Below are positions 8,856 through 64,000 of a DNA stretch of 64,000 nt, one piece after another (positions within the stretch are counted from its first letter, which is position 1; each line of letters begins with the position of its first letter). Made by a program: the position numbers and the translations under genes. Origin of the DNA: Candidatus Accumulibacter necessarius (GTDB taxonomy: Bacteria; Pseudomonadota; Gammaproteobacteria; Burkholderiales; Rhodocyclaceae); contig JAFLDL010000020.1 of assembly GCA_017302435.1 (NCBI GenBank), positions 19,371 to 83,370 on the forward strand, written 5' to 3'. The notes beneath the pieces were generated by a model that had not been told where the DNA came from, searched no databases, and worked only from the letters and a program-made list of their open reading frames with translations.

Positions 8856-8884
8856 AATGCCACTTTCCTTCCCGGCTGCCGTCG

Positions 8885-9790
8885 ATGTTCGCCCGCCTGC
8901 CACACCCGTACCTGCTGCTAGTGCTGACGACCCTGTTCTGGTCGGGCAACATGGTCATCGGCCGCGCCATCCGTGACCAGGTCCCACCGTTTTCGCTCGC
9001 TTTCTGGCGCTGGACAATCGCTCTCGCTTTGGTACTGCCGCTGGCCCTGCCGCATCTGCGCGCACAGGGGCCACTGCTCCGACAGCACTGGCTGGCCGTG
9101 ACCGTCCTCGGCCTGCTCGGCATTGGCGGCTACAACACCCTGGCGTACATCGGGCTGCAGTACACGCCGGCGACCAACGCCGTCCTGCTGAACTCGTTCA
9201 TCCCGATCGCCACCATCACGCTGTCGTGGATCTTCCTCAAGAAGCACTTGCTGGGCGTCGAGTGGTTCGGTGTTCTGCTCTCCTTCGTCGGCGTGACGTC
9301 CATCGTCTGTCGCGGTGACCTGAACACCCTGGCACAAATGAGCCTCAACGTCGGCGACCTCTGGATGCTCGCGGCCGTTTTCACCTGGGCTCTGTACACG
9401 ATCGGACTGCAGTGGCGACCACCCGGCGTCCACCCGATGCTGCTGCTCGCCGCCTTTACGGTTGTCGGCCTCCTGGCACTTGCTCCCGGCTACGCCTGGG
9501 AAATCGCACAGGGCCAGACAATCCAGGTGTCGACCGGTTCGCTGGCCGCCATTGCCTACACCGGGGTCTTTCCAGGTTTTCTCGGCTACGTCTTCTATAA
9601 CCGCGCCGTCGGCGAAGTCGGGGCCAGCAAGGCCAGCCTGTTCATTCACTTGATGCCGGTCTTCGGAACCCTCCTTTCGGCCATATTTCTCGCCGAGATT
9701 CCGCAGCCTTACCACTACGCCGGCATCAGCCTGATTTTCGCCGGCATCTACCTCACCACGTCCTCGTTGCCGAGGGCGAAGACCCCATGA
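8885..9790 (+). CDS. EamA/DMT-family transporter
   Basis: 301 residues with about ten membrane segments in two repeated EamA halves. The first starts with LFWSGNMVIGRA, the second ends with PVFGTLLSAIFLAE, both typical of drug/metabolite exporters. Inner-membrane carrier, substrate unknown. Its stop overlaps the start of mtfA by 4 bp, so the two are probably cotranscribed. relA starts on the other strand 29 bp upstream. Confidence 0.88.
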   Translation: MFARLPHPYLLLVLTTLFWSGNMVIGRAIRDQVPPFSLAFWRWTIALALVLPLALPHLRAQGPLLRQHWLAVTVLGLLGIGGYNTLAYIGLQYTPATNAVLLNSFIPIATITLSWIFLKKHLLGVEWFGVLLSFVGVTSIVCRGDLNTLAQMSLNVGDLWMLAAVFTWALYTIGLQWRPPGVHPMLLLAAFTVVGLLALAPGYAWEIAQGQTIQVSTGSLAAIAYTGVFPGFLGYVFYNRAVGEVGASKASLFIHLMPVFGTLLSAIFLAEIPQPYHYAGISLIFAGIYLTTSSLPRAKTP

Positions 9791-10575
9791 TTGGCAATCT
9801 GTTCGACTGGTTGCGAAACCGGCAGGAGCCGGCTCCCGTGCCGGAGGCCCTGTGGCAGGCGGTTGTTGCAGCGCTGCCGTTTCTCGCCGCGCTCAGCGAC
9901 GAAGAGCAGGTCCGGCTGCGCTCTCTGGCCGAAGACTTCCTCGCCGAAAAGGAGTTCACCGCCGCCGGCGGGCTCGAACTGTCGGACGCGATCTGCGTCT
10001 CGATTGCCGCCCAGGGCTGCCTGCCGATTCTCAACCTCGGCCTCGACTACTACCGTGGCTGGGTGGGAGTGATCGTCTACGCCGACGAGTTCGTCATCCC
10101 ACGCAGCGTCGAGGACGAATTCGGGGTCGTCCATGAGTATCAGGAACTGGCCTCGGGCGAGGCGTGGGACGGCGGACCCCTGCTGATTTCCTGGCGCGAC
10201 GCACAAATGGCTGGCGCCGGCTACAACGTGGTCATTCATGAGTTCGCGCACAAGCTCGACATGCTCAATGGCGACGCGAACGGCATCCCGCCGCTGCACG
10301 CGGGAATTTCGCACACCGACTGGCAGCAGGTGCTACTCGCCAGCTACCGCCATTTCTGTACGCTGGTCGACCAGGCTGAGGACGGCGGTGAGGAAACCAC
10401 GTTTGATCCCTATGCTGCCGAGAATCCCGGCGAGTTCTTCGCCGTCATGAGCGAAGCGTTTTTCGAGACCCCGGACGTGCTGCAGGCCGAATATCCGGCG
10501 CTCTACGAAAACCTGGCCGGGTTCTACCGACAGGATCCCGCTTCCCGGCTGCTCCCACCGGGCGTTGTGCAGTAG
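9787..10575 (+). CDS. mtfA: MtfA-type zinc-dependent peptidase
   Basis: 262 residues, the length of E. coli MtfA. The zinc-peptidase motif HEFAHKLDMLNG is at residues 151-162 (HExxH 151-155), with a downstream acidic stretch (ENPGEFFAVMSEAFFE) likely to supply the third zinc ligand. In E. coli MtfA binds the Mlc repressor and has aminopeptidase activity. No Mlc/pts gene is visible here, so the local partner is unknown. The ATGA overlap with the transporter gene fixes the start. Confidence 0.88.
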   Translation: MIGNLFDWLRNRQEPAPVPEALWQAVVAALPFLAALSDEEQVRLRSLAEDFLAEKEFTAAGGLELSDAICVSIAAQGCLPILNLGLDYYRGWVGVIVYADEFVIPRSVEDEFGVVHEYQELASGEAWDGGPLLISWRDAQMAGAGYNVVIHEFAHKLDMLNGDANGIPPLHAGISHTDWQQVLLASYRHFCTLVDQAEDGGEETTFDPYAAENPGEFFAVMSEAFFETPDVLQAEYPALYENLAGFYRQDPASRLLPPGVVQ

Positions 10576-10787
10576 TCTGGGAGGTTTGGATCGCGAAAAA
10601 GGGGGCGTTGTCCAACCCGGCGCTCAAAAGCGACGCCTTGAATGTCGCTTCGCGGTAATCCGGGCGGAGGTCTGCCTCCTGCAGGTGGAGCAGGTCAGAG
10701 TGGAGATGGTGGACATTTGGCCGAGGATCTGAAGTTCAGCCTCTGTCTCGAAGACGATGAGACGGCGTGCAGCACGTCGTCCAACAC

Positions 10788-11351
10788 TTATCGGTTGCCC
10801 CCCTGCTGTACGAGGTTCCGCTGCATCAGCGCGAAGAAGCGGTCGTAGAAAGGACCGGCGGGAACCGTTTCGCTCGCCACCTTGACGAGAGAATCCTCGC
10901 TCGCCGAGAGCGGGATCGATACCGAGCCGAACGCGGCCACACCAACACTGGCCGAGTTCGGATTCTTCTTCAGCGCGTAACGTTCCTCGATGGCATTGAC
11001 GTACGCCGTTGCAAGTTTGCCGAGATCGCCGTCCGCAACGCAGACGACATGAAATGCGATCTGCACGTGCACCTCGCCTTCGGGCTGGAAGTGCTTGCTG
11101 GCGCTGATGGAATCCTGCCTGTCCGTGGTCAACAGGTAGCCCTGACTGAGCAGCGCACGGCGGGCGGCTTCGCAGGTTGCTTCAGCGCTGGCGTCGAACA
11201 GGCGCGAGAAGGTCTCGTTGGCCTCGAAGCCTTCGTTCTGGTAAACCGCGACCTTGCCGGGCCCGCTGGCGCAAGCCGCCAGCAGACCGGTCAGGCCCAG
11301 CAGCATCAGGCCGGCGATCAGCCGGTAAAGAGCGGGCGGCGGCAGGCACAT
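10788..11351 (-). CDS. Predicted lipoprotein, DUF2242-like
   Basis: Starting at the ATG at 11351 gives 187 residues with a clear lipoprotein signal: hydrophobic stretch then the lipobox LAAC at about residues 26-29. The mature part is soluble and has the pattern YQNEGFEANETFSRLFD, which resembles the DUF2242 lipoproteins of betaproteobacteria. This is a recollection of the family, not a search result. It lies 29 bp downstream of the DUF4332 gene on the same strand. Function unknown. Confidence 0.65.
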   Translation of the reverse strand: MCLPPPALYRLIAGLMLLGLTGLLAACASGPGKVAVYQNEGFEANETFSRLFDASAEATCEAARRALLSQGYLLTTDRQDSISASKHFQPEGEVHVQIAFHVVCVADGDLGKLATAYVNAIEERYALKKNPNSASVGVAAFGSVSIPLSASEDSLVKVASETVPAGPFYDRFFALMQRNLVQQGGNR

Positions 11352-52660: not shown

Positions 52661-53482
52661 GTGCACACCCTGACCATGTTCCTTGCCGCGGCGCTCGCCG
52701 TTCTGCCCATCGGTGCGCCGGCGCAGCAGCGGGCGAAGGAACTGCGCCTGCTGGCGGCCGAGCTTCCCCCCTATACCTTCCAGATTCCGCCTGCCAGCGT
52801 TGGCGAAACGCCGGGAGTCGACCAGGGCTTCGTCTACGAGGTGGTGAGCGAGATTGCCCGGCGCGTCGGCCATACCGGTCTCATCGAGTTCATGCCCTGG
52901 GGAGAAGCGCAACGCATTGCCCAGACGCAGCCGAACATCGGCATCCTCGCCCTGACCCGGACGCCTGAACGGGAGGATCGCTATCGCTGGCTGGCAAAAA
53001 TCGTCACCGACGACCTGATCCTCGTTGGTGGTCAGGGAATTGACGTAGCCGGTCTGGACAAGGTCAAGGACCGCCCCGTTGGCGTGCTCAGCCGTTCTGG
53101 CGCGGAAGCCCTGTTGAAGGAGCGCGGCTTTACACGCGTCCGGCCGCAGCCTGAGGAGTGGTTGAACGCGCGCCAGATGCAGCAGCGCCGTATCGACGCC
53201 TGGCTGGCGCCGCGGCTGATGGTGATCCACGCCATGCGCGAGGTTGGCGGCAATCTGGAGGCGCTCAACTTTGGCGAGATCGTTCGCAAGAGCGAAATCT
53301 ATCTTGCCGCCTCGAAGGACCTGCCCGACGCCGAGGCACAGAAGTGGGAAAAGGCGTTCGAGGCCGTGAAGGTCGACGGCACCTACCAGCGCATCGCTGA
53401 CGAGTACAACCGCCTGAAGATTGTGCCGATACCAGACGAAATGCGGCAGCGTTTCAGCCAGCCGGTCTGGGAGGGCAGGTAA
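52661..53482 (+). CDS. Periplasmic amino-acid-type substrate-binding protein
   Basis: 273 residues from GTG at 52661 (GGGGGCGACC before it), signal peptide MHTLTMFLAAALAVLPIGAPA. Two-lobe PBP2 fold: ELRLLAAELPPYTF, QGFVYEVVSEIARRVG, ILALTRTPEREDRY. Such proteins feed ABC importers or sensors, but here it pairs with a GntP carrier, which normally needs none. No ABC permease is near, so its partner is unclear. Confidence 0.82.
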   Translation: MHTLTMFLAAALAVLPIGAPAQQRAKELRLLAAELPPYTFQIPPASVGETPGVDQGFVYEVVSEIARRVGHTGLIEFMPWGEAQRIAQTQPNIGILALTRTPEREDRYRWLAKIVTDDLILVGGQGIDVAGLDKVKDRPVGVLSRSGAEALLKERGFTRVRPQPEEWLNARQMQQRRIDAWLAPRLMVIHAMREVGGNLEALNFGEIVRKSEIYLAASKDLPDAEAQKWEKAFEAVKVDGTYQRIADEYNRLKIVPIPDEMRQRFSQPVWEGR

Positions 53483-53665
53483 AGCTTACTCGCTGCGCTT
53501 CCCGGCTCGTCGCGCCAGGGTTTTCCGCGTCGCATGCAGAAGCCAGGGGTCCTGCGCGACATGGCAGGATGCGGTCGTGGCCTCTTGCCATCGAGGCGAT
53601 CCGGTATCCGGAATAGGCATGACGGGCGGGGAGAAATCCTGGCGGCCAGAGCGAAGCCAGGCAGC

Positions 53666-53695
53666 AAAAAGGCCACTCTTCGGAGTGGCCTTTTT
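53666..53695. terminator. Strong bidirectional intrinsic terminator
   Basis: 8-bp GC stem GGCCACTC / GAGTGGCC with a TTCG loop, flanked by AAAAA and TTTTT, so it works on both strands. Rightward it ends the binding-protein operon. Leftward it is the original terminator of tRNA-Ala, now cut off from the intact tRNA by the inserted element. Confidence 0.9.
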
Positions 53696-53751
53696 GCTTG
53701 ATTCCTTGGTGGAGACAGGCGGGATCGAACCGCCGACCTTCTGATTGCGAA
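53695..53751 (-). repeat. Left attachment repeat: truncated tRNA-Ala 3' half
   Basis: 57 bp identical to 63,283-63,339. It comprises the 3' half of tRNA-Ala (anticodon loop through CCA) and the bases just beyond. After 53,751 the match to the tRNA gene stops, so this is the displaced copy (one att end) made by integration. The integrase gene starts 177 bp away. Confidence 0.93.
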
Positions 53752-53845
53752 ACATAACTTCCGGGCATTTTTCCACGTTGCATGGTATGCACAAAAGGCA
53801 GAAAAACCCCCTGAAAAACAAGCAACCGCGGCAAATACGCATTGC

Positions 53846-53873
53846 TTGACGTTGCTATGAATTGCTGTAGAAT
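53846..53873 (+). promoter_or_regulatory. Integrase promoter
   Basis: TTGACG (53,846-53,851) and TAGAAT (53,868-53,873) with 16-bp spacing form a near-consensus sigma-70 promoter 55 bp before the integrase ATG. The -10 touches the first GGCTACA arm-type site, so integrase binding could repress its own transcription. Confidence 0.75.
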
Positions 53874-53891
53874 GGCTACATGGTGGCTACA
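53873..53891. repeat. Arm-type site, left copy (TGGCTACA pair)
   Basis: A 19-bp unit containing GGCTACA twice, spaced 11 bp, identical to 63,220-63,238 at the other end of the element. A third, inverted copy (TGTAGCC) lies at 53,904-53,910. Position inside both element ends fits arm-type binding sites of a tyrosine integrase or its excisionase. Confidence 0.65.
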
Positions 53892-53928
53892 ATGAATCGC
53901 CTATGTAGCCAAGCCCGGAGCCGACACC

Positions 53929-55242
53929 ATGAACCGCGAACGCCTGACGCCCGACCGAATCCGCCGCCTGGCCCTGCCCGAGGGAGCCGGGCAATTCTTC
54001 CTTTGGGATACCGTCGCGCCGCGGCTGGCCGTGCGCGTGACCGCTGGCGCCAAGTCGTTCATCTTTGAGGCCAAGCTGAACAGGCAAACCATCCGCGTGA
54101 CCATCGGCGACGTTCGCGCGAATGACATTGATCACGCCCGGAAAGAGGCCAACCGGATGCAAGCGTTGATCGACCAGGGAATAGACCCGCGCCAAGAGAA
54201 GCGCGAGCGCTTCGCCGCTGAGGAGGCAAAGCGCGTATCGGCGAAGCGGATCGCCGCGCCAGCAATGGAACCATGGCGAGCGTACATCGAAGCGCGCCGC
54301 ATGAACTGGAGTCCGCGTCATCTTCTCGAACACGAAACGGTCGTAAAGGAAGGAGGGGAACCGCGCACCCAAGGGCGCCGGCCCGGCGAGAGTGACAAGA
54401 CCCTGCCGGGCATCCTGCGCCCGCTGCTGGTTCTTCCTCTGGAACAGATCGACGCTGACCGGGTACGCGCCTGGCTCAAGGACGAGGCGACGCGCCGCCC
54501 GACCTACGCCCGCCTTTCATTCGCAATGCTGCGCGCCTTCCTCAACTGGTGCGCCGACCGCCCCGAGTACCGCGACCAGGCGCACAAGGACGCCTGCATC
54601 ACCCGCATGGCACGCGACGAACTGCCGAAGAAATCCGCCAAGGACGACTGCCTGCAACGTGAGCAACTGCCGGCATGGTTCGCCGCCGTGCGCCAGATCG
54701 GGAACCCGGTCATTGCCGCCTATCTGCAAACTGCTCTACTGACTGGCGCCCGCCGTGAAGAAGTGGCAAGTATCCGGTGGGAGGATGTGGACTTCCAGTG
54801 GAAGGCGATGACCATCCGCGACAAGGTAGAGGGAACGCGCACGATTCCGTTGACGCCCTACGTCGCTGCGCTGCTGGTCGGCCTGCCACGTCGCAATGAA
54901 TGGGTTTTCGCAAGCCTCACATCAGCGTCAGGACGCCTTCAGGAACCGCGGTATGCCCACAACCAAGCCCTGACCGCTGCCGGCCTGCCACTGATCAGTA
55001 TTCACGGCTTGCGCCGGTCATTCGGCACCCTGGCGGAATGGGTAGAGTGTCCGGCCGGTGTCTCTGCGCAACTCATGGGACACAAGCCGAGCGCCACAGC
55101 GGAGAAGCATTACAGGCGCCGCCCGCTCGATTTGTTGAGGAAGTGGCACACAAAGATTGAAGGCTGGATTCTGAACGAAGCCGGTATCGAGCAACCCGGA
55201 GAGGAAGGAAGACCGGGATTGCGAGTGGTTCCCGTGGCCTGA
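53929..55242 (+). CDS. int: Tyrosine recombinase/integrase
   Basis: 437 residues. N-terminal DUF4102-type arm-binding domain (FLWDTVAPRLAVRVTAGAKSF), core-binding domain, and catalytic domain. Catalytic residues seen: R275 in TGARREEV, H359 and R362 in HGLRRSF, H385 in GHKPSA and nucleophile Y395 in KHYRRR. Should integrate and excise the element at the tRNA-Ala 3' half. Lies next to the displaced att copy, not the intact tRNA. Confidence 0.95.
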   Translation: MNRERLTPDRIRRLALPEGAGQFFLWDTVAPRLAVRVTAGAKSFIFEAKLNRQTIRVTIGDVRANDIDHARKEANRMQALIDQGIDPRQEKRERFAAEEAKRVSAKRIAAPAMEPWRAYIEARRMNWSPRHLLEHETVVKEGGEPRTQGRRPGESDKTLPGILRPLLVLPLEQIDADRVRAWLKDEATRRPTYARLSFAMLRAFLNWCADRPEYRDQAHKDACITRMARDELPKKSAKDDCLQREQLPAWFAAVRQIGNPVIAAYLQTALLTGARREEVASIRWEDVDFQWKAMTIRDKVEGTRTIPLTPYVAALLVGLPRRNEWVFASLTSASGRLQEPRYAHNQALTAAGLPLISIHGLRRSFGTLAEWVECPAGVSAQLMGHKPSATAEKHYRRRPLDLLRKWHTKIEGWILNEAGIEQPGEEGRPGLRVVPVA

Positions 55243-55322
55243 CGGTTTCAGGCAAAGCGGGCGGCGCCGGTGCGGAAACACCGACGCCGCCCTGAACAAA
55301 CCGACCTGTATAGGAGATCGAC

Positions 55323-55652
55323 TTGTCTACCTCGTATTCTACCACTGCGCCCAGCATCGCCTGGCGCTACACCCGCAAGCTTCAAGCCTTCAGCCCAACC
55401 GAGCGCGACGCCCTGGCGTCGACGGCCCTCGTCCTGCTCGACCTGATCAACCAAGGTGCTCTGGTTGTCAGTCGTCAATGCGGCCCGTCTGCCGCGTCAA
55501 ATACCGGCGCCATGCTGCTACGGCTGAACCTCCTTGAAGATGCCCTCTACGGCCCGGTGGACGAGCGCTTGGTACAGTCTCGCCTGGCTGAAGTGGTGGG
55601 CATCGCTTGCGCCCTGCGCAACGACAAGATCCTGATGGGCGACCGGCCATGA
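55323..55652 (+). CDS. Unknown small helical protein
   Basis: 109 residues. Start is TTG at 55323 with AGGAG at good spacing. Predicted mostly helical (ERDALASTALVLLDLINQ; LNLLEDALYGPVDERLV). No motif recognised. Its stop overlaps the RadC-like start by 4 bp, so they are coupled. Confidence 0.6.
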   Translation: MSTSYSTTAPSIAWRYTRKLQAFSPTERDALASTALVLLDLINQGALVVSRQCGPSAASNTGAMLLRLNLLEDALYGPVDERLVQSRLAEVVGIACALRNDKILMGDRP

Positions 55653-56128
55653 ACGCCCCGACCCCGCACCCACTGCCACCGATGACCCCTGCCGAGCTGG
55701 CCATCATCCGGCGAGCCATGCGCCTGATTGAAAGCCGACTGAGGCACGCCGGCGAGGCTATGACCTCCCCTACGCTCGTCAAGGACCTCCTGCGGCTGCG
55801 CATGGCTGGGCTTGAGCGTGAGCACTTCGACCTCCTGCTGCTGGACGCGCAAAACCGGCTGGTCCATGTGGAAACGCTCTTCGTAGGCACCTTGACGCAG
55901 ACAAGCGTCTACCCGCGCGAAGTCGTGAAGCTGGCCCTGCGCTTCAATGCGGGCGCCGCCATCATCTGCCATAACCACTCGTCAGGGTTCATCGAGCCGT
56001 CGCGCGCCGACGAGCTGCTGACGGGCGAGCTCAAGAAAGCCCTCTCTCTGGTCGAGGTGCGCCTGCTCGATCACTTCATCATCGCAGGGAATGACGTGCT
56101 GAGTTTTGCGGAGAGGGGCTTGATATGA
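55649..56128 (+). CDS. RadC-like JAB/MPN-domain protein (copy 1)
   Basis: 159 residues. A JAB/MPN metallo-domain with the full zinc motif HNHSSGFIEPSRAD (H-x-H ... S-x2-D), as in the RadC family common on islands and plasmids. The N-terminal helix-hairpin-helix of chromosomal RadC is lacking. Biochemical role of RadC proteins is unsettled; protection of mobile DNA has been proposed. Overlaps both neighbours by 4 bp. Confidence 0.88.
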   Translation: MNAPTPHPLPPMTPAELAIIRRAMRLIESRLRHAGEAMTSPTLVKDLLRLRMAGLEREHFDLLLLDAQNRLVHVETLFVGTLTQTSVYPREVVKLALRFNAGAAIICHNHSSGFIEPSRADELLTGELKKALSLVEVRLLDHFIIAGNDVLSFAERGLI

Positions 56129-56547
56129 GCGCGCGCCGTTACCGGTTTCTCCTGACTTCTCGCGTTTTCCAGTTCGAGGAAGTCGACACCGACAGACTAC
56201 CGACCCACCAACCAAAAAAGGGCAAAGGCATGAAAGCTGAAACGATGTGGATTGATGACCAGGAAGGCTTTTCCGTTGGCGCTGCCGGGTTCCTGATCGA
56301 GCATCAAAACTCCTATGTCGGTGCTGATCACTACAGCCTCTCAGACACGCCGGCCTATACCAACGTATCGCACATGCCCCGGTTGACTGGCTGGTGCGGT
56401 ACGTACAACGACCTGGCCACTTACGGCTGCGGCGCCTGGCGCATCGTTCAGCAAGCCAAGAACGGCCGCATGAAAATCAAGGAGCTGGCTGGGGATGACC
56501 TACGGGCATTCCTTGAGGAGTCCGGCTATCCCGACCTGGCCGGCTGA
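56125..56547 (+). CDS. Unknown element protein
   Basis: 140 residues from the ATG overlapping the RadC-like stop. A second start (ATG at 56230, MKAETMW) is possible. The body is Trp/Tyr/Cys-rich (WCGTYNDLATYGCGAWRIV), looks like a small beta domain. Not recognised. Confidence 0.55.
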   Translation: MSARRYRFLLTSRVFQFEEVDTDRLPTHQPKKGKGMKAETMWIDDQEGFSVGAAGFLIEHQNSYVGADHYSLSDTPAYTNVSHMPRLTGWCGTYNDLATYGCGAWRIVQQAKNGRMKIKELAGDDLRAFLEESGYPDLAG

Positions 56548-56567
56548 TCGCCAGAGCAAGCCATCAA

Positions 56568-56625
56568 TGCCACGGCTAAGCCCGCGAACTGAAAAGCGGG
56601 AAACCTTCACCCGCCTGCCGTGGCA
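56568..56625 (+). promoter_or_regulatory. Nested and mutually exclusive hairpins
   Basis: An outer 9-bp stem (TGCCACGGC / GCCGTGGCA) encloses CCCGC (56,581), GCGGG (56,596) and CCCGC (56,610). The middle block can pair with either neighbour but not both, as in attenuators. A related segment (CTGAAAAGCGG then AAACC) lies at about 63,163-63,180. May control the next gene or be a small RNA; no protein in it. Confidence 0.45.
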
Positions 56626-56658
56626 CCCTCATTGAAGGAGCGTTGAAGGAACGCCAGC

Positions 56659-57273
56659 ATGGACAAGAAGAAACCGACAAAAGAATTTTCCGCCGATGAG
56701 ATTCGAGATCTTTATGTAGCCGCTTCGGCCCGGCTATTCAGTTGCGACCAGGACGAAGACCCAAGAATTGAAGCGCTGAAGACCGACGAGACCAGGCACA
56801 TTTCTGCGGCCGCCTACCTGCTCACTCTGCTGGAGAAAATCCAGGCGGCACGGGAAATAAACCAAAGTCCGGTGGTTTTGAACTTCGTCCGCCAGTGGAC
56901 AAAAACCATCGCCGAGTATGGCTGCTTTCAACTCCACCACTTGCGGGCGAACTCGATTGAAGACCAACAACGGATTGTTGAGCAGGCGATTTCCGATAGA
57001 GCACGCATCGGTGGTGCGTCCAGCAAGCGCCCGCCCTCACTGACCAGCGGCAGAGCGCTGGTCGACCAATGGAAGAGGCGGAACAGCCGCCGCCGATGGA
57101 CCTGGCTTGTCGCCTGGGGAAAGCTGGTAGAAATCGCTCATTCAGAAAGCGCTATCGGTGAGTTCACCGTTTCACCGCACGATGAAGATCCAGACCAGAT
57201 ACTTTTCACCATTTCCGGCAAAACGAGTCCTCTCAAAAAGACCTCGTTCAGGACCTATTGGAACGCGAAATAA
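56659..57273 (+). CDS. Unknown element protein
   Basis: 204 residues, charged, mostly helical first half (SADEIRDLYVAASARLF; TWLVAWGKLVEIAHSE). No signal peptide, membrane segment or known motif. Its stop is followed within 3 bp by the first palindromic operator. Function unknown. Confidence 0.6.
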   Translation: MDKKKPTKEFSADEIRDLYVAASARLFSCDQDEDPRIEALKTDETRHISAAAYLLTLLEKIQAAREINQSPVVLNFVRQWTKTIAEYGCFQLHHLRANSIEDQQRIVEQAISDRARIGGASSKRPPSLTSGRALVDQWKRRNSRRRWTWLVAWGKLVEIAHSESAIGEFTVSPHDEDPDQILFTISGKTSPLKKTSFRTYWNAK

Positions 57274-57276
57274 AAA

Positions 57277-57298
57277 AATGAATAACCGGTTATTCATT
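57277..57298. promoter_or_regulatory. Palindromic operator 1 (core TAACCGGTTA)
   Basis: A perfect 22-bp palindrome centred on CCGG. It shares its core with a second palindrome whose centre is exactly 32 bp downstream (three helical turns, same DNA face). No T tract on either side, so not a terminator. Likely binding site of an element regulator ahead of the AlpA-like gene. Confidence 0.75.
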
Positions 57299-57305
57299 GC
57301 CCGCA

Positions 57306-57333
57306 GGTAACGGATAACCGGTTATCCGTTACC
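57306..57333. promoter_or_regulatory. Palindromic operator 2 (core TAACCGGTTA)
   Basis: A perfect 28-bp palindrome with the same 10-bp core but different flanks (GGTAACGG...CCGTTACC). It ends 43 bp before the AlpA-like ATG, within the expected promoter. The pair suggests cooperative binding of two repressor dimers. Confidence 0.78.
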
Positions 57334-57376
57334 CCGTGCGTTTACAGTTATTGCACATCCCTCTAGGAACCAATCA

Positions 57377-57586
57377 ATGTCAACTGATACAAAACTCAGC
57401 CGCAAATTATCCACCGAGGAATTCGCCGACGTACTCCGATACAAAGCGACGACCGTACGCAGCGTTTTGTGCCGATCGGGCAGTTTCAAGGGCATTCAAC
57501 CCGTCAAGCTGCCCGGAGGCCGGCTGCTATGGGATGCTGACGAAGCCGCCGCGCTGGCCAACGGAACCTTGAAGGTTTCCCAGTGA
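57377..57586 (+). CDS. AlpA/excisionase-like HTH protein
   Basis: 69 residues. A small winged-HTH of the MerR/AlpA helix_turn_helix_17 type: LSTEEFADVLRYKATTVRSVL then the wing KLPGGRLLWD. Such proteins act as excisionases or activators in satellites of the P4 type. The two operators upstream probably control it, perhaps by itself. GTGA overlap with the next gene. Confidence 0.75.
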   Translation: MSTDTKLSRKLSTEEFADVLRYKATTVRSVLCRSGSFKGIQPVKLPGGRLLWDADEAAALANGTLKVSQ

Positions 57587-57912
57587 AACGCCCGACTCAC
57601 AATCTGGTGGAGTTGCGACCAGGCGAGACCCTGGCCGATGTGCTGCCGGTCTTTGCCGACGCGGTGGTGGACGTTCATATCGGCGAGCCCGACCCAAATT
57701 GCGCGAGCTGCCGGGAGCCATTCACGCAAGCCAGCCCGCGGGCGAAGGAGATCCGCGTCTATCCGGTGGCCGCCTGCCAGATCGCCCCCATTGCGCTCGC
57801 TTTCGACCTTTGCGGCGGTTGCTACCAGCAGTATCAAGCGGGCGGCGGTGAGCGTTTGGTGATCCTCGAAAACATTGACGCCCTTCTCGATGGCGACTGG
57901 TCGCCAAGGTGA
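57583..57912 (+). CDS. Putative zinc-finger protein
   Basis: 109 residues from GTG at 57583. Two C-x2-C pairs (NCASCREPF and LCGGCYQQY) about 50 residues apart should bind one zinc. No other motif. Coupled to both neighbours by GTGA overlaps. Function unknown. Confidence 0.65.
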   Translation: MKRPTHNLVELRPGETLADVLPVFADAVVDVHIGEPDPNCASCREPFTQASPRAKEIRVYPVAACQIAPIALAFDLCGGCYQQYQAGGGERLVILENIDALLDGDWSPR

Positions 57913-58136
57913 AGCCATGCACCTTACCGTCGCGCCACGGCCTGCTGGCGAGGTTCGAGCCAGAGGCCGTCGACGGACTCGCCCTCGTCGCGCTGCGACT
58001 GCTCGACACCATCGCCGCCACCGGGCAACCATCGCCGGCCCTGATCGCCGCAAGTTTCGTGGTACTCGACGCTGCCCGCGGCGATTCCTCACTGATCGAG
58101 CCGGCCGTCATTGAGCTGCTGTCCGTCGAGATATAG
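57909..58136 (+). CDS. Small helical unknown protein
   Basis: 75 residues from GTG at 57909, leucine/alanine-rich helices (LALVALRLLDTIAA; PALIAASFVVLDAA). No motif. Four bases separate it from the Toprim gene. Could be a replication accessory by position only. Confidence 0.5.
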   Translation: MKPCTLPSRHGLLARFEPEAVDGLALVALRLLDTIAATGQPSPALIAASFVVLDAARGDSSLIEPAVIELLSVEI

Positions 58137-58140
58137 CGTC

Positions 58141-58992
58141 ATGACGCCGCTTGACGTCCACGCCGGGTTCATATTGGCGCTGCAATCGGCAGGACTCGCG
58201 ATGCACCGAGAGTCCGACCTGTTGGCCGATGGTCGATTGCACCGTTACCGGGTAGACGGGGACAAATCAGGAAGTGTCAACGGATGGTATGTGCTGGACG
58301 CTTCGACGCCCGCTCATGCGGCCTTTGGTTCATGGAAGACCGGCCAGAGCTGCACCTGGCGCCCGGATGAAGCCGCACCCATGACTGAAGCCGAGCGCGC
58401 GGCGCTGGCGCTGCGCAGAGCGGCGGCGCGGGCGGCGCGGGATACCGAGCAGGCGGCTGTTCGAGCGGCGGCGCGAGCGCGCGCAGAAAGGCTGTGGACG
58501 CGGGCTAAGCCTGCGACCAACGATCACCCCTACCTGATAGCAAAAGGGGTTCCTGCCTTCGGCATTCGGGCGCTGCGCGGGCAATTGGTGATTCCCATGC
58601 GAGACATCCGGGGAACCACGCATTCGGCGCAGTTCATCGGCGAGGACGGAAAGAAGACGTTCTTGACCGGTGGCCGGAAGCAAGGCTGCTACTTTGCCAT
58701 TGGCACGCCTCGCCACGTCATTTGTATTGCGGAGGGATACGCCACTGCCGCAAGCGTAGTCCGCTCCACCGGGCACGCCGCGGCGGTGGCATTCGACGCC
58801 GGCAACCTGGCGCCGGTCGCCCGCGCTCTACGTTCAAAGTTCCCCGGCGTGGTGCTGTGTGTCTGCGCTGACGACGATCACGAAACCCCCGGAAACCCTG
58901 GCCTTGCCGCCGCTCAACAAGCCGCTGCCGCCGCTGGCGCAGTGCTCGCCCTTCCACGATTCGACAGGACCTTCCATGACTGCCCGCAGTGA
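58141..58992 (+). CDS. Toprim-domain primase-like protein
   Basis: 283 residues. The first ~90 residues are a DNA-binding-like region, then an Ala/Arg helix (~85-125), then a Toprim domain. Toprim motifs: glutamate in ICIAEGYATA and the acidic DDDHE in VCADDDHETPG. Resembles the primase part of phage P4-type or plasmid primases; no zinc finger is visible. Adjacent helicase gene overlaps by 17 bp. Confidence 0.82.
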   Translation: MTPLDVHAGFILALQSAGLAMHRESDLLADGRLHRYRVDGDKSGSVNGWYVLDASTPAHAAFGSWKTGQSCTWRPDEAAPMTEAERAALALRRAAARAARDTEQAAVRAAARARAERLWTRAKPATNDHPYLIAKGVPAFGIRALRGQLVIPMRDIRGTTHSAQFIGEDGKKTFLTGGRKQGCYFAIGTPRHVICIAEGYATAASVVRSTGHAAAVAFDAGNLAPVARALRSKFPGVVLCVCADDDHETPGNPGLAAAQQAAAAAGAVLALPRFDRTFHDCPQ

Positions 58993-60226
58993 CTTCAACG
59001 ACCTGATGAGAGAGTGCGGCCCGGCCGCTGTGGAGGACCAAATTGACGCGGTGATAGGCAAGGCCATGCGCACGGCTGAAAAGCCCGCCATGCGCCAAAG
59101 CGCAAGCCCTGGGCGCAATTCCTTGAAACAAGTTACCGGTGATCCAGAGCCGGAACACTACGGAAAGCGCGTTATCGTGCAGCGTGCATCAGACATCACC
59201 CCAAAGCCGATTGCATGGCTGTGGCACGGCAAAATTGCCCTGGGAAAGTTGACGCTCATTGCCGGAGATCCAGGACTCGGCAAATCCATGTTGACGGCCA
59301 GCCTGGCCGGGCATGTATCGACTGGCCGAGCCTGGCCCGCTGGCGGCGCCTGCCCTCTTGGCGATGTCCTCTTCGTCTCGGCAGAGGACGACCCGGCCGA
59401 TACCATTCGACCGCGTCTTGACGCTGCGGGCGCTGACCCGCACAGGGTGCACATCGTGGCTGGTGTTGAGTCGCTTGACACAAGAGGCTTGCCGGAGAAG
59501 CGGCTGCTCAGTCTCAAAAAGGATCTGGTGGCGATTTCTGAGGCGGTGCTTGCACTGCAAGAATGCCGGCTGATTGTGATCGACCCGGTATCGGCTTACA
59601 TGGACGGATCAGACAGCCACAACAACGCAGAGGTGAGAGGCTTGCTGGCGCCGCTTTCTGAGCTCGCGCGGGCCATTGGCGCGGCTATTGTGGCTGTGAC
59701 TCACCTGAACAAAGGCGCGGGCGGATCAGCGCTGTATCGGGCAACTGGAAGCCTTGCGTTTGTTGCGGCGGCGCGCGCTGCATTTCTCGTGACTCGCGAC
59801 AAAGCGGACCAGGATAGGCGGCTGTTCTTGCCGCTCAAGAACAACCTGGCCAGCGACGCCAGCGGCATGGCCTACTGCATCAGCGAGTCAAAAGGCGTGC
59901 CGTTCGTCGAGTGGGAAGACGCTCCCGTTTCGATTTCTGCTGATGAAGCGCTTGGTCGCCCGGAGGACGAGGACCACGAGCGCACCCTGGCTGACGCCGC
60001 CGACGAGTGGCTGAGAGAGGTTCTGGCTGGCGGCGCGGTGGAGTCCGACGCAGTGAAGCGACACGCCAAGGACGCCGGCTACTCGTGGTCTACGATTCGA
60101 CGAGCTCAAGCAGCCATCGGCATCAAGCCAAAAAGGACTGGTGGAGCTGGCGCCGGTGGTCGTTGGGTGTGGTCTTTGCCAGAGGGTGAGGAGTCAAAAC
60201 AGCTTCCACTTATGTCTGATGAATAG
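58976..60226 (+). CDS. RepA-type hexameric replicative helicase
   Basis: 416 residues from the ATG at 58976. RecA-like ATPase of the RSF1010 RepA kind: Walker A AGDPGLGKS near residue 99, acidic SAEDDP, Walker B RLIVIDP, and VTHLNKG. The C-terminal ~60 residues form a winged-helix-like domain (VKRHAKDAGYSWSTIRRAQAAIG). With the Toprim protein it gives a two-gene replication module, ending just before the iterons. Confidence 0.88.
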   Translation: MTARSDFNDLMRECGPAAVEDQIDAVIGKAMRTAEKPAMRQSASPGRNSLKQVTGDPEPEHYGKRVIVQRASDITPKPIAWLWHGKIALGKLTLIAGDPGLGKSMLTASLAGHVSTGRAWPAGGACPLGDVLFVSAEDDPADTIRPRLDAAGADPHRVHIVAGVESLDTRGLPEKRLLSLKKDLVAISEAVLALQECRLIVIDPVSAYMDGSDSHNNAEVRGLLAPLSELARAIGAAIVAVTHLNKGAGGSALYRATGSLAFVAAARAAFLVTRDKADQDRRLFLPLKNNLASDASGMAYCISESKGVPFVEWEDAPVSISADEALGRPEDEDHERTLADAADEWLREVLAGGAVESDAVKRHAKDAGYSWSTIRRAQAAIGIKPKRTGGAGAGGRWVWSLPEGEESKQLPLMSDE

Positions 60227-60231
60227 AACCG

Positions 60232-60484
60232 CTAAGGTGCTCAAGGATTGCCTAAGGTGCTCACCTAAGATGCTCATTGAGCAACTTAGCTACACACTAT
60301 ATATATCAAGGGTTGTAGCTAAGTTGCTCAAGGTGCTCATGGGTGTGAGCACCTTAGTCTTTTCATCGCCTAAGGTGCTCAAGGTGCTCACACCCTTAAC
60401 CCATTTGAGCAACTTAGCGGGAACCCGCATGAATACTGGCTTTGGCCTAAGGTGCTCAATGAGCATCTTAGGTGAGCACCTTAG
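60232..60484. repeat. Iteron array, probable replication origin
   Basis: Eleven copies of a 12-bp iteron (consensus CTAAGGTGCTCA, variants at 1-2 positions) plus two overlapping 10-bp copies. Direct starts: 60,232; 60,252; 60,265; 60,319; 60,370; 60,447. Inverted starts: 60,278; 60,346; 60,406; 60,460; 60,473. Partials: 60,330; 60,381. An AT-rich patch (about 60,290-60,308) interrupts them. Following a helicase gene, this is most simply the origin. An open frame across it is an artefact. Confidence 0.88.
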
Positions 60485-60670
60485 GCAAGCCGTTGAGGCT
60501 TTGAATGTCGCTTTCGGGATGGAGCCGGGCAAAAAAATGGGTCCTCCCAAGGCCGAAACCTTGCGGGTAATGCGAACCGCGGGCCGGCGCTAGGCAACGG
60601 CCCTGAATCATAGGCAACCCCCCTCCTTTGGCTTGATGCAACTCCGTTGCGTTTGGACTTTTCAGGAATG

Positions 60671-61135
60671 ATGAGCGAACAGACGAGCTTTTCCGCTTTG
60701 AGGTGGCTTGGCGCCCGACCGAGTACCCTGCAACGATTGCTTGACCGCCTTGACCTGGCGGTCGACTTCGCCCCGCTGGTGGCTGAGCTGCAAGCCGCGC
60801 TGCCGGTATCGACAGGCAAAGGTCGGATGCCCTGGCCACTGGAAACGCTTTGCCGTATCTCTGCGCTGGCGCTTGTTTTCGGCTGGAACGGGCGACAGGC
60901 TGAGGACGCTCTGCTTGACCTGCCAGCGGTGTGCTCCTTCTGCCGGCTGAACGACAACGGCCGCCGACCGCCTGACGCCGAAACCGTCTCGGGTTTCCGT
61001 CGCAAGCTTCAGGCTGCCGGCCTGGGCGCCGTGATCGAGGATCACCTGCAAGCCGAGTTGAAGCGGTGGGGCTTGCGGCTGGCCCCGGGTTCGACCGTCG
61101 AGCCGCGCCTGACTGGTGGGGATGGCTGCGCATGA
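60671..61135 (+). CDS. Stand-alone IS5-type transposase N-terminal domain (DUF772-like)
   Basis: 154 residues. PWPLETLCRISALALVFGWNGRQAEDALLD and RRPPDAETVSGFRRKL match the N-terminal DUF772 domain of IS5-type transposases. The DDE catalytic domain is absent, yet the frame is intact and its stop overlaps the next gene (ATGA). It is not flanked by IS ends. Either a remnant or a domesticated DNA-binding protein. Confidence 0.7.
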   Translation: MSEQTSFSALRWLGARPSTLQRLLDRLDLAVDFAPLVAELQAALPVSTGKGRMPWPLETLCRISALALVFGWNGRQAEDALLDLPAVCSFCRLNDNGRRPPDAETVSGFRRKLQAAGLGAVIEDHLQAELKRWGLRLAPGSTVEPRLTGGDGCA

Positions 61136-61431
61136 CGACCGGCGAGGCACTGGACCTGATTACCAGCGTCCTGTCGGCCGTGAAGCGATTGCTTCTCGAC
61201 AACCGGGGCGAAGTGACCGACGCGGACCTGATCGCCTTGGAGCGTCGCATCAGGCGACAGTGGGCTGGCTGCCGGCCCTATGTCGGTGGCCGCGTGCCAG
61301 TCTCGCGTAGGTACCAGGCTATTCTGGCGGACCTTGCCGCTGGCATTCCTGAAAGCGATGTTGCAGAAACGCACGAAGTGTCCGCGCGAACGATTCGACG
61401 CGCACGCCAGTCTGGCCAAAGACGGCCTTAA
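61132..61431 (+). CDS. Mor-like transcriptional regulator
   Basis: 99 residues. N-terminal helices, then Mor/C-type core: RRIRRQWAGCRPYVGG, VPVSRRYQAILADLAAGIPESDVAETH, VSARTIRRARQ as the recognition helix. Mor activates middle genes in Mu; satellites use such proteins for late activation. Coupled to the DUF772-type gene. Confidence 0.65.
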   Translation: MTTGEALDLITSVLSAVKRLLLDNRGEVTDADLIALERRIRRQWAGCRPYVGGRVPVSRRYQAILADLAAGIPESDVAETHEVSARTIRRARQSGQRRP

Positions 61432-61489
61432 ATCGCCGCTTCGTCGGCTTCAGAATCGGGTTTTCGAACTTGCAGCAAGGCCCGACACG

Positions 61490-61810
61490 ATGAACCCGAC
61501 CCCCGCCCAAACGCTGAAGACCGCAATGGAAGCCATGCGAGCCGAGCTGGCCGCCGTCGAAAAAACCATTGCCACATGTCGCTACGAACTCCGCCAGCAG
61601 CGACAAGGCGGCAACGTGGCCGCGACGCTGTTATGCAAGATCCAGCGAACGGTCACCGAGCACATGGCGTCTCCCGAATGGCGGGAACTGGACCACGGAT
61701 TGAATCAACGGCAAGACCGGACCGCCGCCATTCAAAGTCGCCTTGCCGCCGCCATTACCCGACGGGACAAGTTGCGCCAGCAAGCGCGCGATGCTGGCGT
61801 CCTCCTCTGA
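61490..61810 (+). CDS. Unknown coiled-coil protein
   Basis: 106 residues, almost wholly helical with coiled-coil-like heptads (AMRAELAAVEKTIATCRYELRQQRQ; RTAAIQSRLAAAITRRDKLRQQ). Layout resembles the protein encoded at 62,005. No motif. Function unknown. Confidence 0.55.
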   Translation: MNPTPAQTLKTAMEAMRAELAAVEKTIATCRYELRQQRQGGNVAATLLCKIQRTVTEHMASPEWRELDHGLNQRQDRTAAIQSRLAAAITRRDKLRQQARDAGVLL

Positions 61811-62004
61811 AACTGAAAGCTTCAAAGCCGGTCACCCTAGAGAAGCGCGCCCATCGTGTGGCCGGCCGAATGTCATGGCACATGGGAAGCGCACCGGGCC
61901 AGCGGGCTATAGCGTGCTGGCGACGAGGCCCCCGGCCGCGCGGTTATCCTTGTCCGCGTCGCACGACCTCACCCCACCCCACCAACTGCGAAAGGCACCA
62001 CAAC

Positions 62005-62517
62005 ATGTTCAAAAAGACGCCATCCTCGATTGATGATTACCGCGCGGAGTTCGACCAGGCGCAGGCTGAGATTTTCGCCGCCGATACGGAGATCCGTCGG
62101 CTGGAAGCGCAGCCCACTTCTCGTGCTGACACCGTTGGCATGTTCACAGACCTGATAAACGCCGAGGCGACGCGCTGCCGTTTGCCGCTGGCCGGGTTTC
62201 TGCTCGAATGCTCGCGGAACGTGCCGCTGCGTCATGGTGGCCTGCGGGGGGTGATTCATCACAGGTTGAACGCCTGCGTACCTGGCCGCAATCCAACCCT
62301 TGACGATCTGGTGGACCTCTTCATTGCCGCCACCGGACCCGACCAGCTGCTGAAGCTCATCAAGGACGCGGCAAACGAGATCGACTGGCCGGACGTGCCT
62401 GACGCCACCGAACGCGAAAAGCAAATTGCCGCCGCCGTTCAGCGTCGCGACCGCGCCAAGGCACTCGCCGGCGAGATTGTCGACCGCGCGCGCCAATGCG
62501 GTTTCATTTTTCCCTGA
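62005..62517 (+). CDS. Unknown helical protein
   Basis: 170 residues. Coiled-coil-like start (DDYRAEFDQAQAEIFAADTEIRRLEA), a central region, and a basic helical end. It ends 3 bp before the second RadC-like gene. The ~190 bp before its ATG hold no gene. Function unknown. Confidence 0.55.
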   Translation: MFKKTPSSIDDYRAEFDQAQAEIFAADTEIRRLEAQPTSRADTVGMFTDLINAEATRCRLPLAGFLLECSRNVPLRHGGLRGVIHHRLNACVPGRNPTLDDLVDLFIAATGPDQLLKLIKDAANEIDWPDVPDATEREKQIAAAVQRRDRAKALAGEIVDRARQCGFIFP

Positions 62518-62520
62518 CCA

Positions 62521-63135
62521 ATGGGTGACCTCAACCGCCGCGACCAGGCGACCATCGAGCGAGCAAAGCGCTTGCTGGCCGGCCGGCTGGCGTCTGGCAG
62601 CGTGGACCTTGCCAGCCCGCGGGATCTGGAAAACTTCTTGCTGGTTCAGCTTGACGGCCTGGCTGACGAGCACTCGATATGCCTTGCGCTGGACGACGCC
62701 AGCCGCTTGCTTGATTTTCGAGTGTGGTCTGGCGACCTGCGCCGATGCGAGATGCGGCCCCGGCAAATCGCCGCCCTTGCTCTGGCAGTCAATGCGACGA
62801 AAATCATCGTCGGACATTCTCACCCCGCTTCGATTTGCTGCCCGACGCCCAGCGAACAAGACGTTGAGTCAACCCACAGGCTGCGCACGATTCTTGGCTG
62901 GCTCGACTTGCAGCTGCTCGACTCGTACTTGATCGCCGTAGGCGCTGTCCATAGCGTCGACATGTCCGACGCCGCCGCAAGCGTTGCGCAAGCTGGCATA
63001 CTGAACGGCGACCTGCGCGACCGCCTGGCGGACATCGTCCAATGCTTGAGCGCTGCATCGCCAGCGCTGGGCCGCTTACAGACCCCCGCAAGAATCCTTA
63101 TCGAGCACGCTACCCGCCTGGCCAACGGCACGTGA
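62521..63135 (+). CDS. RadC-like JAB/MPN-domain protein (copy 2, divergent)
   Basis: 204 residues. JAB metal motif GHSHPASICCPTPSEQD (H-x-H-P ... S-x2-D) and the following LLDSYLIAVG match the RadC family, but overall it is very different from copy 1. A ~45-residue C-terminal tail is extra. Last gene of the element before the right att site. Confidence 0.8.
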   Translation: MGDLNRRDQATIERAKRLLAGRLASGSVDLASPRDLENFLLVQLDGLADEHSICLALDDASRLLDFRVWSGDLRRCEMRPRQIAALALAVNATKIIVGHSHPASICCPTPSEQDVESTHRLRTILGWLDLQLLDSYLIAVGAVHSVDMSDAAASVAQAGILNGDLRDRLADIVQCLSAASPALGRLQTPARILIEHATRLANGT

Positions 63136-63219
63136 CCGAGATCCCGCGCCGGAGGCTTGTCGGCTGAAAAGCGGAAAACCAAGCGCCCGGCCCTGCCGGT
63201 GGCCTTGATTTCCTGATTC

Positions 63220-63238
63220 TGGCTACATGGTGGCTACA
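63220..63238. repeat. Arm-type site, right copy (TGGCTACA pair)
   Basis: Identical 19 bp to 53,873-53,891, placed 45 bp inside the right att repeat. See the left copy; both probably bind the integrase. Confidence 0.65.
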
Positions 63239-63253
63239 CACAAGCATGACAAC

Positions 63254-63277
63254 AAAAAAGCCACCCCGGAGAGTGGC
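63254..63277 (-). terminator. Element-borne terminator for tRNA-Ala
   Basis: On the minus strand: GCCACTC, TCCG loop, GGGTGGC, then six T. A G-U pair keeps the 7-bp stem in the RNA only in the tRNA direction; on the plus strand the same position is a mismatch. It is similar but not identical to the host terminator at 53,666-53,695. Confidence 0.75.
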
Positions 63278-63282
63278 CTAAG

Positions 63283-63339
63283 TGCTTGATTCCTTGGTGG
63301 AGACAGGCGGGATCGAACCGCCGACCTTCTGATTGCGAA
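63283..63339 (-). repeat. Right attachment repeat inside tRNA-Ala
   Basis: 57 bp identical to 53,695-53,751. It runs from just beyond the CCA end into the anticodon loop of the intact tRNA-Ala, so crossover rebuilt a full tRNA here. Confidence 0.93.
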
Positions 63340-63370
63340 CCAGACGCTCTCCCAGCTGAGCTATGCCCCC
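63295..63370 (-). tRNA. tRNA-Ala(CGC)
   Basis: 76 nt. Acceptor stem GGGGGCA / TGTCTCC (two G-T pairs), D-arm GCTC-AGCTGGGA-GAGC, anticodon loop TTCGCAA (anticodon CGC), T-arm GGCGG-TTCGATC-CCGCC, encoded CCA. Serves as insertion site of the mobile element; its 3' half is the element's copy. Confidence 0.93.
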
Positions 63371-63383
63371 AAGAGCCGCAGGC

Positions 63384-63412
63384 ATTCTATGCGCTGCGAC
63401 TGACAGCGTCAA
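63384..63412 (-). promoter_or_regulatory. tRNA-Ala promoter
   Basis: On the minus strand TTGACG (63,412-63,407) and TAGAAT (63,389-63,384) are spaced 17 bp, and the -10 ends 13 bp before the tRNA 5' end. A near-consensus sigma-70 promoter. Confidence 0.8.
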
Positions 63413-63457
63413 TCCTGTGGATTGCCCGCAAGCTGTCGTTTGATGTCGACGCCAGGG

Positions 63458-63880
63458 CTATTTCTTCGCCTTGGCGGGTGCCGGTATCACCGCGACGGCA
63501 ATCGCTTCGGCAAAAACCCCTTCCACCTGGTCACCCTTCTTGATCAGCTTGAGTTGCTCAGGATCCTTGATCTTCAGGCGAACGGTCCTCTGCGCGCCGC
63601 GCAGCGTCACCGTCTGCTTCTTGAGGTCAACCTGCTGGACATCGGCGATGAAGGCAACCTCTTTCGCCTCAAAGGCAGCAGGCCTTTGCCCCGCTGCGGC
63701 CGTCCCCTGATCGGAGCTGTCGATACGCTGGCGAAGCGCACCGCCACCCTTCTTGAGGGTCATCATCAGTTCCTGGGTGTAGGTGGCAACAACCTGGTCG
63801 CCGACCTTGATCTGGTCAAAATTCTTGACTTCATCGCCGGCAATGATCTTGATCTGTTCGCCCCGGCTGTTCTTAACCGA
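63458..63880 (-). pseudogene. 5'-truncated gene of unknown function
   Basis: The frame is open from 63,880 to the stop at 63,458 (140 codons), but begins right after a TAA with no start codon before the internal Met at 63,766. The protein has two small beta units: IKVGDQVVATYTQEL and KKGDQVEGVFAEAIAV, with a lysine-rich tail. Related secreted proteins would start with a signal peptide, which is missing here. The break coincides with a switch to AT-rich DNA. Confidence 0.65.
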
Positions 63881-64000
63881 TTATTAACACCCCATACGCA
63901 TATTTGGTGCTTTTCAGGCGAGGCTCGACTCTAAGTCTTTGATTTTTCTGTTCGTGGGTCTTTCTGGCGTTTTGTAGTGCCATAATCGTATGCCTTTTTG
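63881..64000. other. AT-rich DNA at window edge
   Basis: The last ~120 bp are clearly AT-richer than everything else nearby and hold no gene. It abuts the truncated gene, which fits the end of an insertion sequence continuing outside the window. Confidence 0.4.

Follow-up and report, generated by a model that had tools for sequence, protein, structure and literature searches.

The window analysed here, 64,000 nucleotides of Candidatus Accumulibacter necessarius (GenBank assembly GCA_017302435.1, contig JAFLDL010000020.1, positions 19,371 to 83,370), contains a 9,588-bp element inserted at a tRNA-Ala(CGC) gene. We identify this element, with a probability of roughly 0.86, as a cos-packaged phage satellite of Candidatus Accumulibacter resembling the phage-inducible chromosomal islands (PICIs). 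The identification draws on sequence: the attachment (att) repeats, the gene set, a cos motif that in viral contigs stands ahead of terminase genes, the lack of any recognised terminase or structural gene, and the related satellites. From these we infer excision, replication, packaging and a helper phage. The cos site was absent from the preliminary description of this DNA, and the gene directly behind it encodes a stand-alone DUF772 protein, the unusual part of the element.

A predicted cos site shared with viral contigs

The motif emerged from a comparison of non-coding sequence ahead of the DUF772 gene between the window and two further Accumulibacter genomes, G016 (locus L021) and G022 (L022), where G numbers denote genomes and L numbers loci or contigs. 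The shared block reads GGGTCCTYCC-N15/16-GGGTAATGCG-nnn-CGCGG. Exact matches of the two-part pattern GGGTCCTYCC/GGGTAATGCG were sought in the 2.9 million viral contigs of IMG/VR, some of which may be cellular, and in 28 genomes of the genus and 399 of the order, both sets including the window's own genome. IMG/VR returned 30 contigs, 18 of them with a spacer of 16 and with L116/L138 and L121/L139 as near-duplicates. All 30 were compared by tblastn with small (TerS) and large (TerL) terminase subunit, primase, minor-tail, capsid and DUF772 queries over up to 4.5 kb behind the motif.

The next recognised gene was TerS or TerL in half of the contigs (15/30: L114-L116, L119, L120, L123, L125, L126, L133, L134, L136, L138, L140, L141 and L143); for L115, L120, L126 and L141, TerL alone was matched, about 600-740 nt beyond the motif. 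A phage-type primase stood behind the motif in nine others (L118, L121, L122, L127, L130, L132, L137, L139 and L142), preceded in L132 and L137 by a minor-tail-type gene (phrog_1924 for L132). Most of these nine had TerS/TerL matches further on, mostly weak, and they are possibly further satellites. In five contigs fewer than 170 nt followed the motif: L117, L131 and L128 end 3, 18 and 67 nt beyond it, the tail of L131 resembling sequencing adapter, and for L129 and L135 the sequence examined, not the contig, stops there. L124, with nothing behind the motif and an odd spacer of 20, is probably a chance match.

TerS belongs to phrog_57 in L138, L133, L125, L134 and L114 and to Pfam Phage_Nu1, above cut-off, in L119; TerL belongs to phrog_15 in L138 and L114, and that of L133 is 37-38% identical to the TerL of phages HK225 and phi80. 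Because the motif precedes TerS/TerL genes with such family assignments in viral contigs, the block at 60539-60574 is identified, by sequence, as a cosN at which cutting is predicted. An alternative reading as oriT, based on a likeness to an RSF1010-type nic region, was dropped, since the motif precedes terminase genes. By blastn, the cos region gave weak matches to phages and plasmids, with 17-30% cover.

Among the genus genomes the pattern occurs at 7 places in 5 of the 28, and the reversed control at none; allowing up to two mismatches at spacer 16 added no place and gave one control match. Two of the 399 order genomes carry it, that of the window and G139. The G139 place (L165) is an element with an integrase-like ORF, a fused Toprim-RepA gene, an exonuclease, a RuvC-like resolvase and TerS; a search with cos alone therefore returned to the same sort of element. 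Within G016, the 15-nt spacer of L021 differs at a single position from that of the copies L151/L152, suggesting that they use one type of helper.

Related elements differ in what stands behind cos

Behind cos we found TerS-TerL in L119, TerS in L165, a coiled-coil-like ORF with a capsid protein in L151/L152, and DUF772 in five elements. L119 (IMGVR_UViG_3300006417_000819, 12,173 bp) is ordered RadC, Toprim, helicase, inverted-repeat zone, HTH, cos, TerS, TerL, RadC, OLD-like ATPase. The gene set of the window is much the same, with two RadC genes, a Toprim protein 73% identical over 229 aa and a small HTH protein 48% identical. L119 differs in its Nu1-type TerS and gpA-type TerL, where the window has DUF772, in its phrog_2373 helicase, in the HTH gene lying on the opposite side of cos, and in its ATPase; an integrase was not found on its contig. 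Capsid and minor-tail queries gave no match in L119, part of whose ORFs were scanned. Its OLD/Gabija-like ATPase (8806-10815; PADLOC Old, E 8.6e-24) is possible anti-phage cargo, and its second RadC gene includes an exact 165-nt tandem duplication (7478-7807).

In L152 (2919-11630, contig C1 of G016; second copy L151), 8,666 bp are enclosed by 46-bp repeats, identical to each other, at tRNA-Thr(TGT). Its integrase is 73% identical to that of the window, its capsid protein matches Phage_capsid (E 2.8e-24), and tblastn found no TerS/TerL match in it.

DUF772 stands behind cos in four Accumulibacter genomes (that of the window, G016, G022 and G010) and in G655 from another family, so that the five elements span two bacterial families; G010 and G655 lay outside the set from which the motif was derived. 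At the G655 locus (L111) the motif has one mismatch and no integrase was identified. None of the five elements had a TerS/TerL match, L022 being partly masked behind the gene. In the G010 element the DUF772 gene is followed directly by about 28 repeat copies at 199/341-nt spacing (L154:1500-9260).

A stand-alone DUF772 protein beside cos

The DUF772 protein of the window matches the transposase model NF033581 (E 4.7e-10) across 113 aa only, and the IS5-type DDE catalytic domain is missing from it. In all five elements the tblastn match starts 115-159 nt from the motif start. The five proteins share as little as 21-24% identity and end at a common point. In an alignment of 37 sequences, all 32 IS5 N-domains carry an Asp, presumably the first DDE catalytic residue, where 5/5 satellite proteins have Glu followed by Pro and end within about 30 residues; the IS5 domains were hand-chosen from genome-search loci, leaving out L012 and L073. 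When seven full IS5 proteins were split and compared with the five elements (L004, L005, L010, L011 and L019 not counted), 31 of the 35 pairs gave an N-half match (E 1.6e-6 or better), and no pair gave a C-half match (best E 0.23). The satellite proteins form one group with support 100/98 in a tree that is unrooted and has three long branches among them. Among the matches listed for 97 scanned loci, the motif (up to 3 mismatches) occurred only in DUF772-satellite loci. Judged from these patterns, the stand-alone DUF772 looks like a conserved gene, not debris. A peptide pattern for the family found 70 stretches in viral contigs, none belonging to it, and 58 in genome contigs, one of which belongs, at the already-known C. 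meliphilus locus. The structure model has eight helices (pLDDT 81.5, pTM 0.76).

What this protein might do is weighed here among four possibilities. It could, as a serious candidate short of being probable, regulate the transcription of late satellite or helper genes, or repress its own operon, with no part in packaging. Its DNA-binding ancestry and its place as first gene of its run fit such a role, as does its coupling to an HTH gene weakly like Q-type antiterminators and late activators (E 0.013 and 0.073); its position, however, goes with cos and not with the HTH gene, found ahead of cos in L119. More tentatively, the captured IS5 DNA-binding half may act as a packaging specificity factor, binding at cos and recruiting the helper terminase, either in place of a Nu1-type TerS or by redirecting it in the manner of Rpp. 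Cos and its neighbour would then form a swappable cassette with DUF772, TerS, TerS-TerL or capsid protein as hijack gene. In lambda, cosB is bound by TerS (PMC6092414), and Rpp, which binds the TerS of the phage, helps the cos sites of PICIs to be recognised (PMC10690885).

Several observations weigh against the packaging role. Between the DUF772 profile and TerS, hhalign found no match (E 0.26 and 0.32), and a PDB fold search with the model returned no solved relative at E 0.001. The box GGCAAC lies 38-39 nt behind cosN in the window and L022 and also in the non-DUF772 L151/L152, L130, L132, L135, L137 and L114. Other boxes accompany other TerS types, for example TAnGGGG at 31-33 in six TerS-TerL contigs; in control windows of 100 random nucleotides the first word set occurs in 9% and the second in 2%. 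The pattern would fit TerS-specific boxes. Because GGCAAC occurs without DUF772 and as a loose common word, its reader need not be DUF772. L021 carries both the DUF772 gene and, further along, a capsid gene (protein 43% to L152), so the slot behind cos is not strictly one-for-one.

Action in replication at the adjacent repeat zone is unlikely. Repeats do lie directly upstream in the window and, by eye, near the gene in L021 and L022, but repeat zones occur in L165 and L119 where DUF772 is lacking, and the helicase varies (AAA_25 in the window and L021, DUF927 in L022 and L154). That the gene is a dead IS5 fragment which landed beside cos is very improbable: homology to IS5 N-domains is what such a fragment would show, yet five elements keep it close behind cos with a common end point and as one tree group, full IS5 proteins match them with N-halves in most pairs and with C-halves in none, and the motif is confined to their loci among the matches listed.

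Boundaries and gene content

The 57-bp repeats at the ends are identical, as the preliminary description had said, and sit within a 115-nt repeat of 83% identity with a spacing of 9,588; the right copy overlaps the 3' part of tRNA-Ala(CGC) (Table 1). The gene left of the element (52661-53751) and the tRNA-Ala/right flank (63283-63950) lie about 0.9 Mb apart on the single contig of G016, so this site may have been rearranged in the past. Extra copies of the 57-bp core share a contig with tRNA-Ala(CGC) in two genomes, at a distance of about 25 kb in G004 and about 15 kb in G011, and the region is perhaps an integration hot spot.

Table 1 Features of the element in the window
Feature	Positions	Strand	Evidence or remark
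attL, 57-bp exact repeat	53695..53751		repeat comparison
19-nt direct repeat TGGCTACATGGTGGCTACA inside each end, candidate integrase arm site	53873-53891 and 63220-63238		
Tyrosine integrase (Arm-DNA-bind_3, Phage_integrase)	53929..55242	+	Pfam
RadC-like JAB protein 1	55607..56128	+	Pfam, E 1.6e-39
Two ORFs without matches (56125-56547, 56659-57273)	56125..57273	+	Pfam, PHROGs
Pair of neighbouring palindromes around ATAACCGGTTAT, ahead of the AlpA-like gene	57277..57333		possible operator
AlpA-like small HTH protein, regulator/excisionase candidate	57377..57586	+	HTH_17 below cut-off
Two small ORFs	57583..58136	+	
Toprim primase-type protein	58111..58992	+	Pfam, PHROGs
RepA-type AAA_25 helicase	58976..60226	+	Pfam; start inferred
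Repeat zone, candidate replication origin	60232..60491		repeats and folding
cosN motif GGGTCCTCCC-N16-GGGTAATGCG, 36 bp	60539..60574	+	sequence comparison
Two GGCAAC boxes (60593-60598, 60613-60618), candidate cosB	60593..60618	+	
Stand-alone DUF772 protein (N-domain of an IS5-type transposase, catalytic domain lacking); first gene behind cos	60668..61135	+	
Small HTH protein	61132..61431	+	start overlaps DUF772 stop
Two ORFs (61490-61810, 62005-62517), charged, probably helical	61490..62517	+	by eye
RadC-like JAB protein 2	62521..63135	+	Pfam, E 9.4e-20
attR, second 57-bp copy	63283..63339		repeat comparison
tRNA-Ala(CGC), integration site	63295..63370	-	sole tRNA in window

All assigned genes lie on one strand, as had been described. 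The earlier statement that no structural or conjugation gene is present also holds, none being recognised with Pfam, NCBIfam, PHROGs or tblastn. PHROGs on 13 distinct ORFs (the AlpA-like ORF and 57909-58136 outside the scan) recognised no structural or lysis gene, the sole head/tail-type line being RadC2 to phrog_137 (E 0.09), and no portal gene, for which this was the only check. TerS, TerL, capsid and minor-tail queries had no tblastn match across the element, no relaxase or transfer family was among the listed Pfam, NCBIfam and PHROGs matches, and PADLOC on nine proteins of the window found nothing. The view of a complete, compact, satellite-like element is thus upheld, and now has positive evidence in a cos common to lambda-type phages, beyond the missing structural genes.

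Modules for integration, replication and regulation had been proposed. The integrase, Toprim, RepA and repeat zone bear out the first two; the regulator match is weak, the AlpA-like protein reaching 20.7 bits with HTH_17 (E 5e-4, cut-off 27), with 50% identity across 36 aa to an L152 protein. The product of 57583-57912 has a relative in the cos-bearing viral contig L141 (43% over 99 aa). For Toprim the PHROGs match is to phage primases (phrog_2249, E 6e-66), and a search of viral contigs for its relatives gave no contig other than that of L119. RepA has PHROGs matches among phage primase/helicase families, and a candidate ATG for it falls within the last part of the Toprim gene, an overlap similar to that of the L119 helicase. 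That the two are a single gene broken by a frameshift was considered and dropped: the frame is fused in L165, but L119 has the two-gene overlap.

The zone behind RepA, described earlier as iterons, does hold repeats, of CTAAGGTGCTCA-type units, but in both orientations, and is strongly foldable: as DNA it gives -91.5 kcal/mol, where 200 shuffles average -35.9 (z -16.4). Similar units, CACAAGATGCTCA, occur at the RepA gene end of L165. Towards the right end, the 62005-62517 product has a weak match in L119; a search of viral contigs found no relatives of it or of the small HTH protein.

Proposed life cycle and alternative readings

The element would sit in its tRNA gene until infection by a lambda-type cos phage or induction of one. 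Excision at the 57-bp att core would then be the work of the integrase together with the AlpA-like protein. Starting at the repeat zone, Toprim and RepA would copy the resulting circle, and the TerS-TerL terminase of the helper would cut at cosN and fill helper heads with satellite DNA.

Some results count against a satellite of this kind. The search for a helper was negative: of the 28 genus genomes, 2 carry lambda-type TerL (PF05876), with no motif within 3 mismatches near those copies, the G018 contig being only 3.8 kb long. All ten regions around RepA relatives (L100-L109) likewise lack the motif within 3 mismatches. No divergent master repressor, expected from the divergent regulatory pair of PICIs, is seen among the assigned genes, the minus-strand ORFs having had no individual scan. 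The RepA regions, eight of ten of which have a tRNA gene, would suit an integrative plasmid or island that moves without phages and in which the cos-like motif is coincidental or otherwise used, and iterons, RepA and integrase fit that as well. We nevertheless consider this quite unlikely, given that the motif is specific and stands before terminase genes in viral contigs, and that plasmid records hold no near DNA match to the element and four weak matches to its cos region (E up to 10). A lambda-type prophage worn down by loss of its structural genes is less likely still. Cos, integrase and Toprim could be its relics, but the att repeats are exact, the genes are coupled on one strand, tblastn found no capsid or terminase relic, and a similar compact plan recurs, for example in L152; the Toprim/helicase overlap is found in L119 too and need not mean decay.

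Comparison with known satellites

The preliminary description had recognised no known family here, which was too strong, as the layout comes close to that of PICIs (PMC6092414): integrase, regulator/xis, primase-rep, origin and packaging. Integrase and att sites are both present, as are primase and rep followed by an origin deduced from the repeats, and, by sequence, a helper-type cos site. At 9,588 bp the element is smaller than the roughly 15 kb typical of PICIs. It shares with the Gram-negative PICI EcCICFT073 (PMC6092414) a compact island with integrase, primase/rep and origin, no recognised structural genes, no TerS, and a lambda-type, helper-type cosN with a differing cosB. The AlpA-type regulator of that island has at most a weakly matching candidate here. 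EcCICFT073 has another host and two cos sites; the element of the window differs in lacking a recognised divergent repressor and in having two RadC genes and DUF772 behind cos.

Like P4 (PMC10690885), the element would combine its own replication with a helper terminase acting at a cos site; its replication protein differs, and no Sid-type gene was recognised. Capsid-forming PICIs (PMC10690885) recall L119 and L152, which have packaging or capsid genes next to cos, although L152 pairs its capsid protein with no TerS/TerL match. In contrast, the element of the window has no recognised capsid, portal (by PHROGs only) or terminase gene of its own.

In layout and proposed life style these are PICI-like satellites, a known kind, and the unusual part is DUF772 behind cos. 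The preliminary description had singled out the combination of two RadC proteins with a stand-alone DUF772; the RadC pair is not unique (two in L119, one in L152), and the DUF772 protein does stand out. In openly licensed PMC papers we found no literature on Accumulibacter phage satellites, on DUF772 in satellites or phages, or on domesticated transposase domains in satellites.

Accumulibacter is known for phosphorus removal from wastewater. The cos signature described here ties satellites to lambda-type terminases in this genus, and it is short, exact and directly searchable. The DUF772 gene is a tangible example of how a transposase domain can become a satellite gene kept beside cos, and the natural swap between TerS-TerL and DUF772 in homologous elements makes its function testable.

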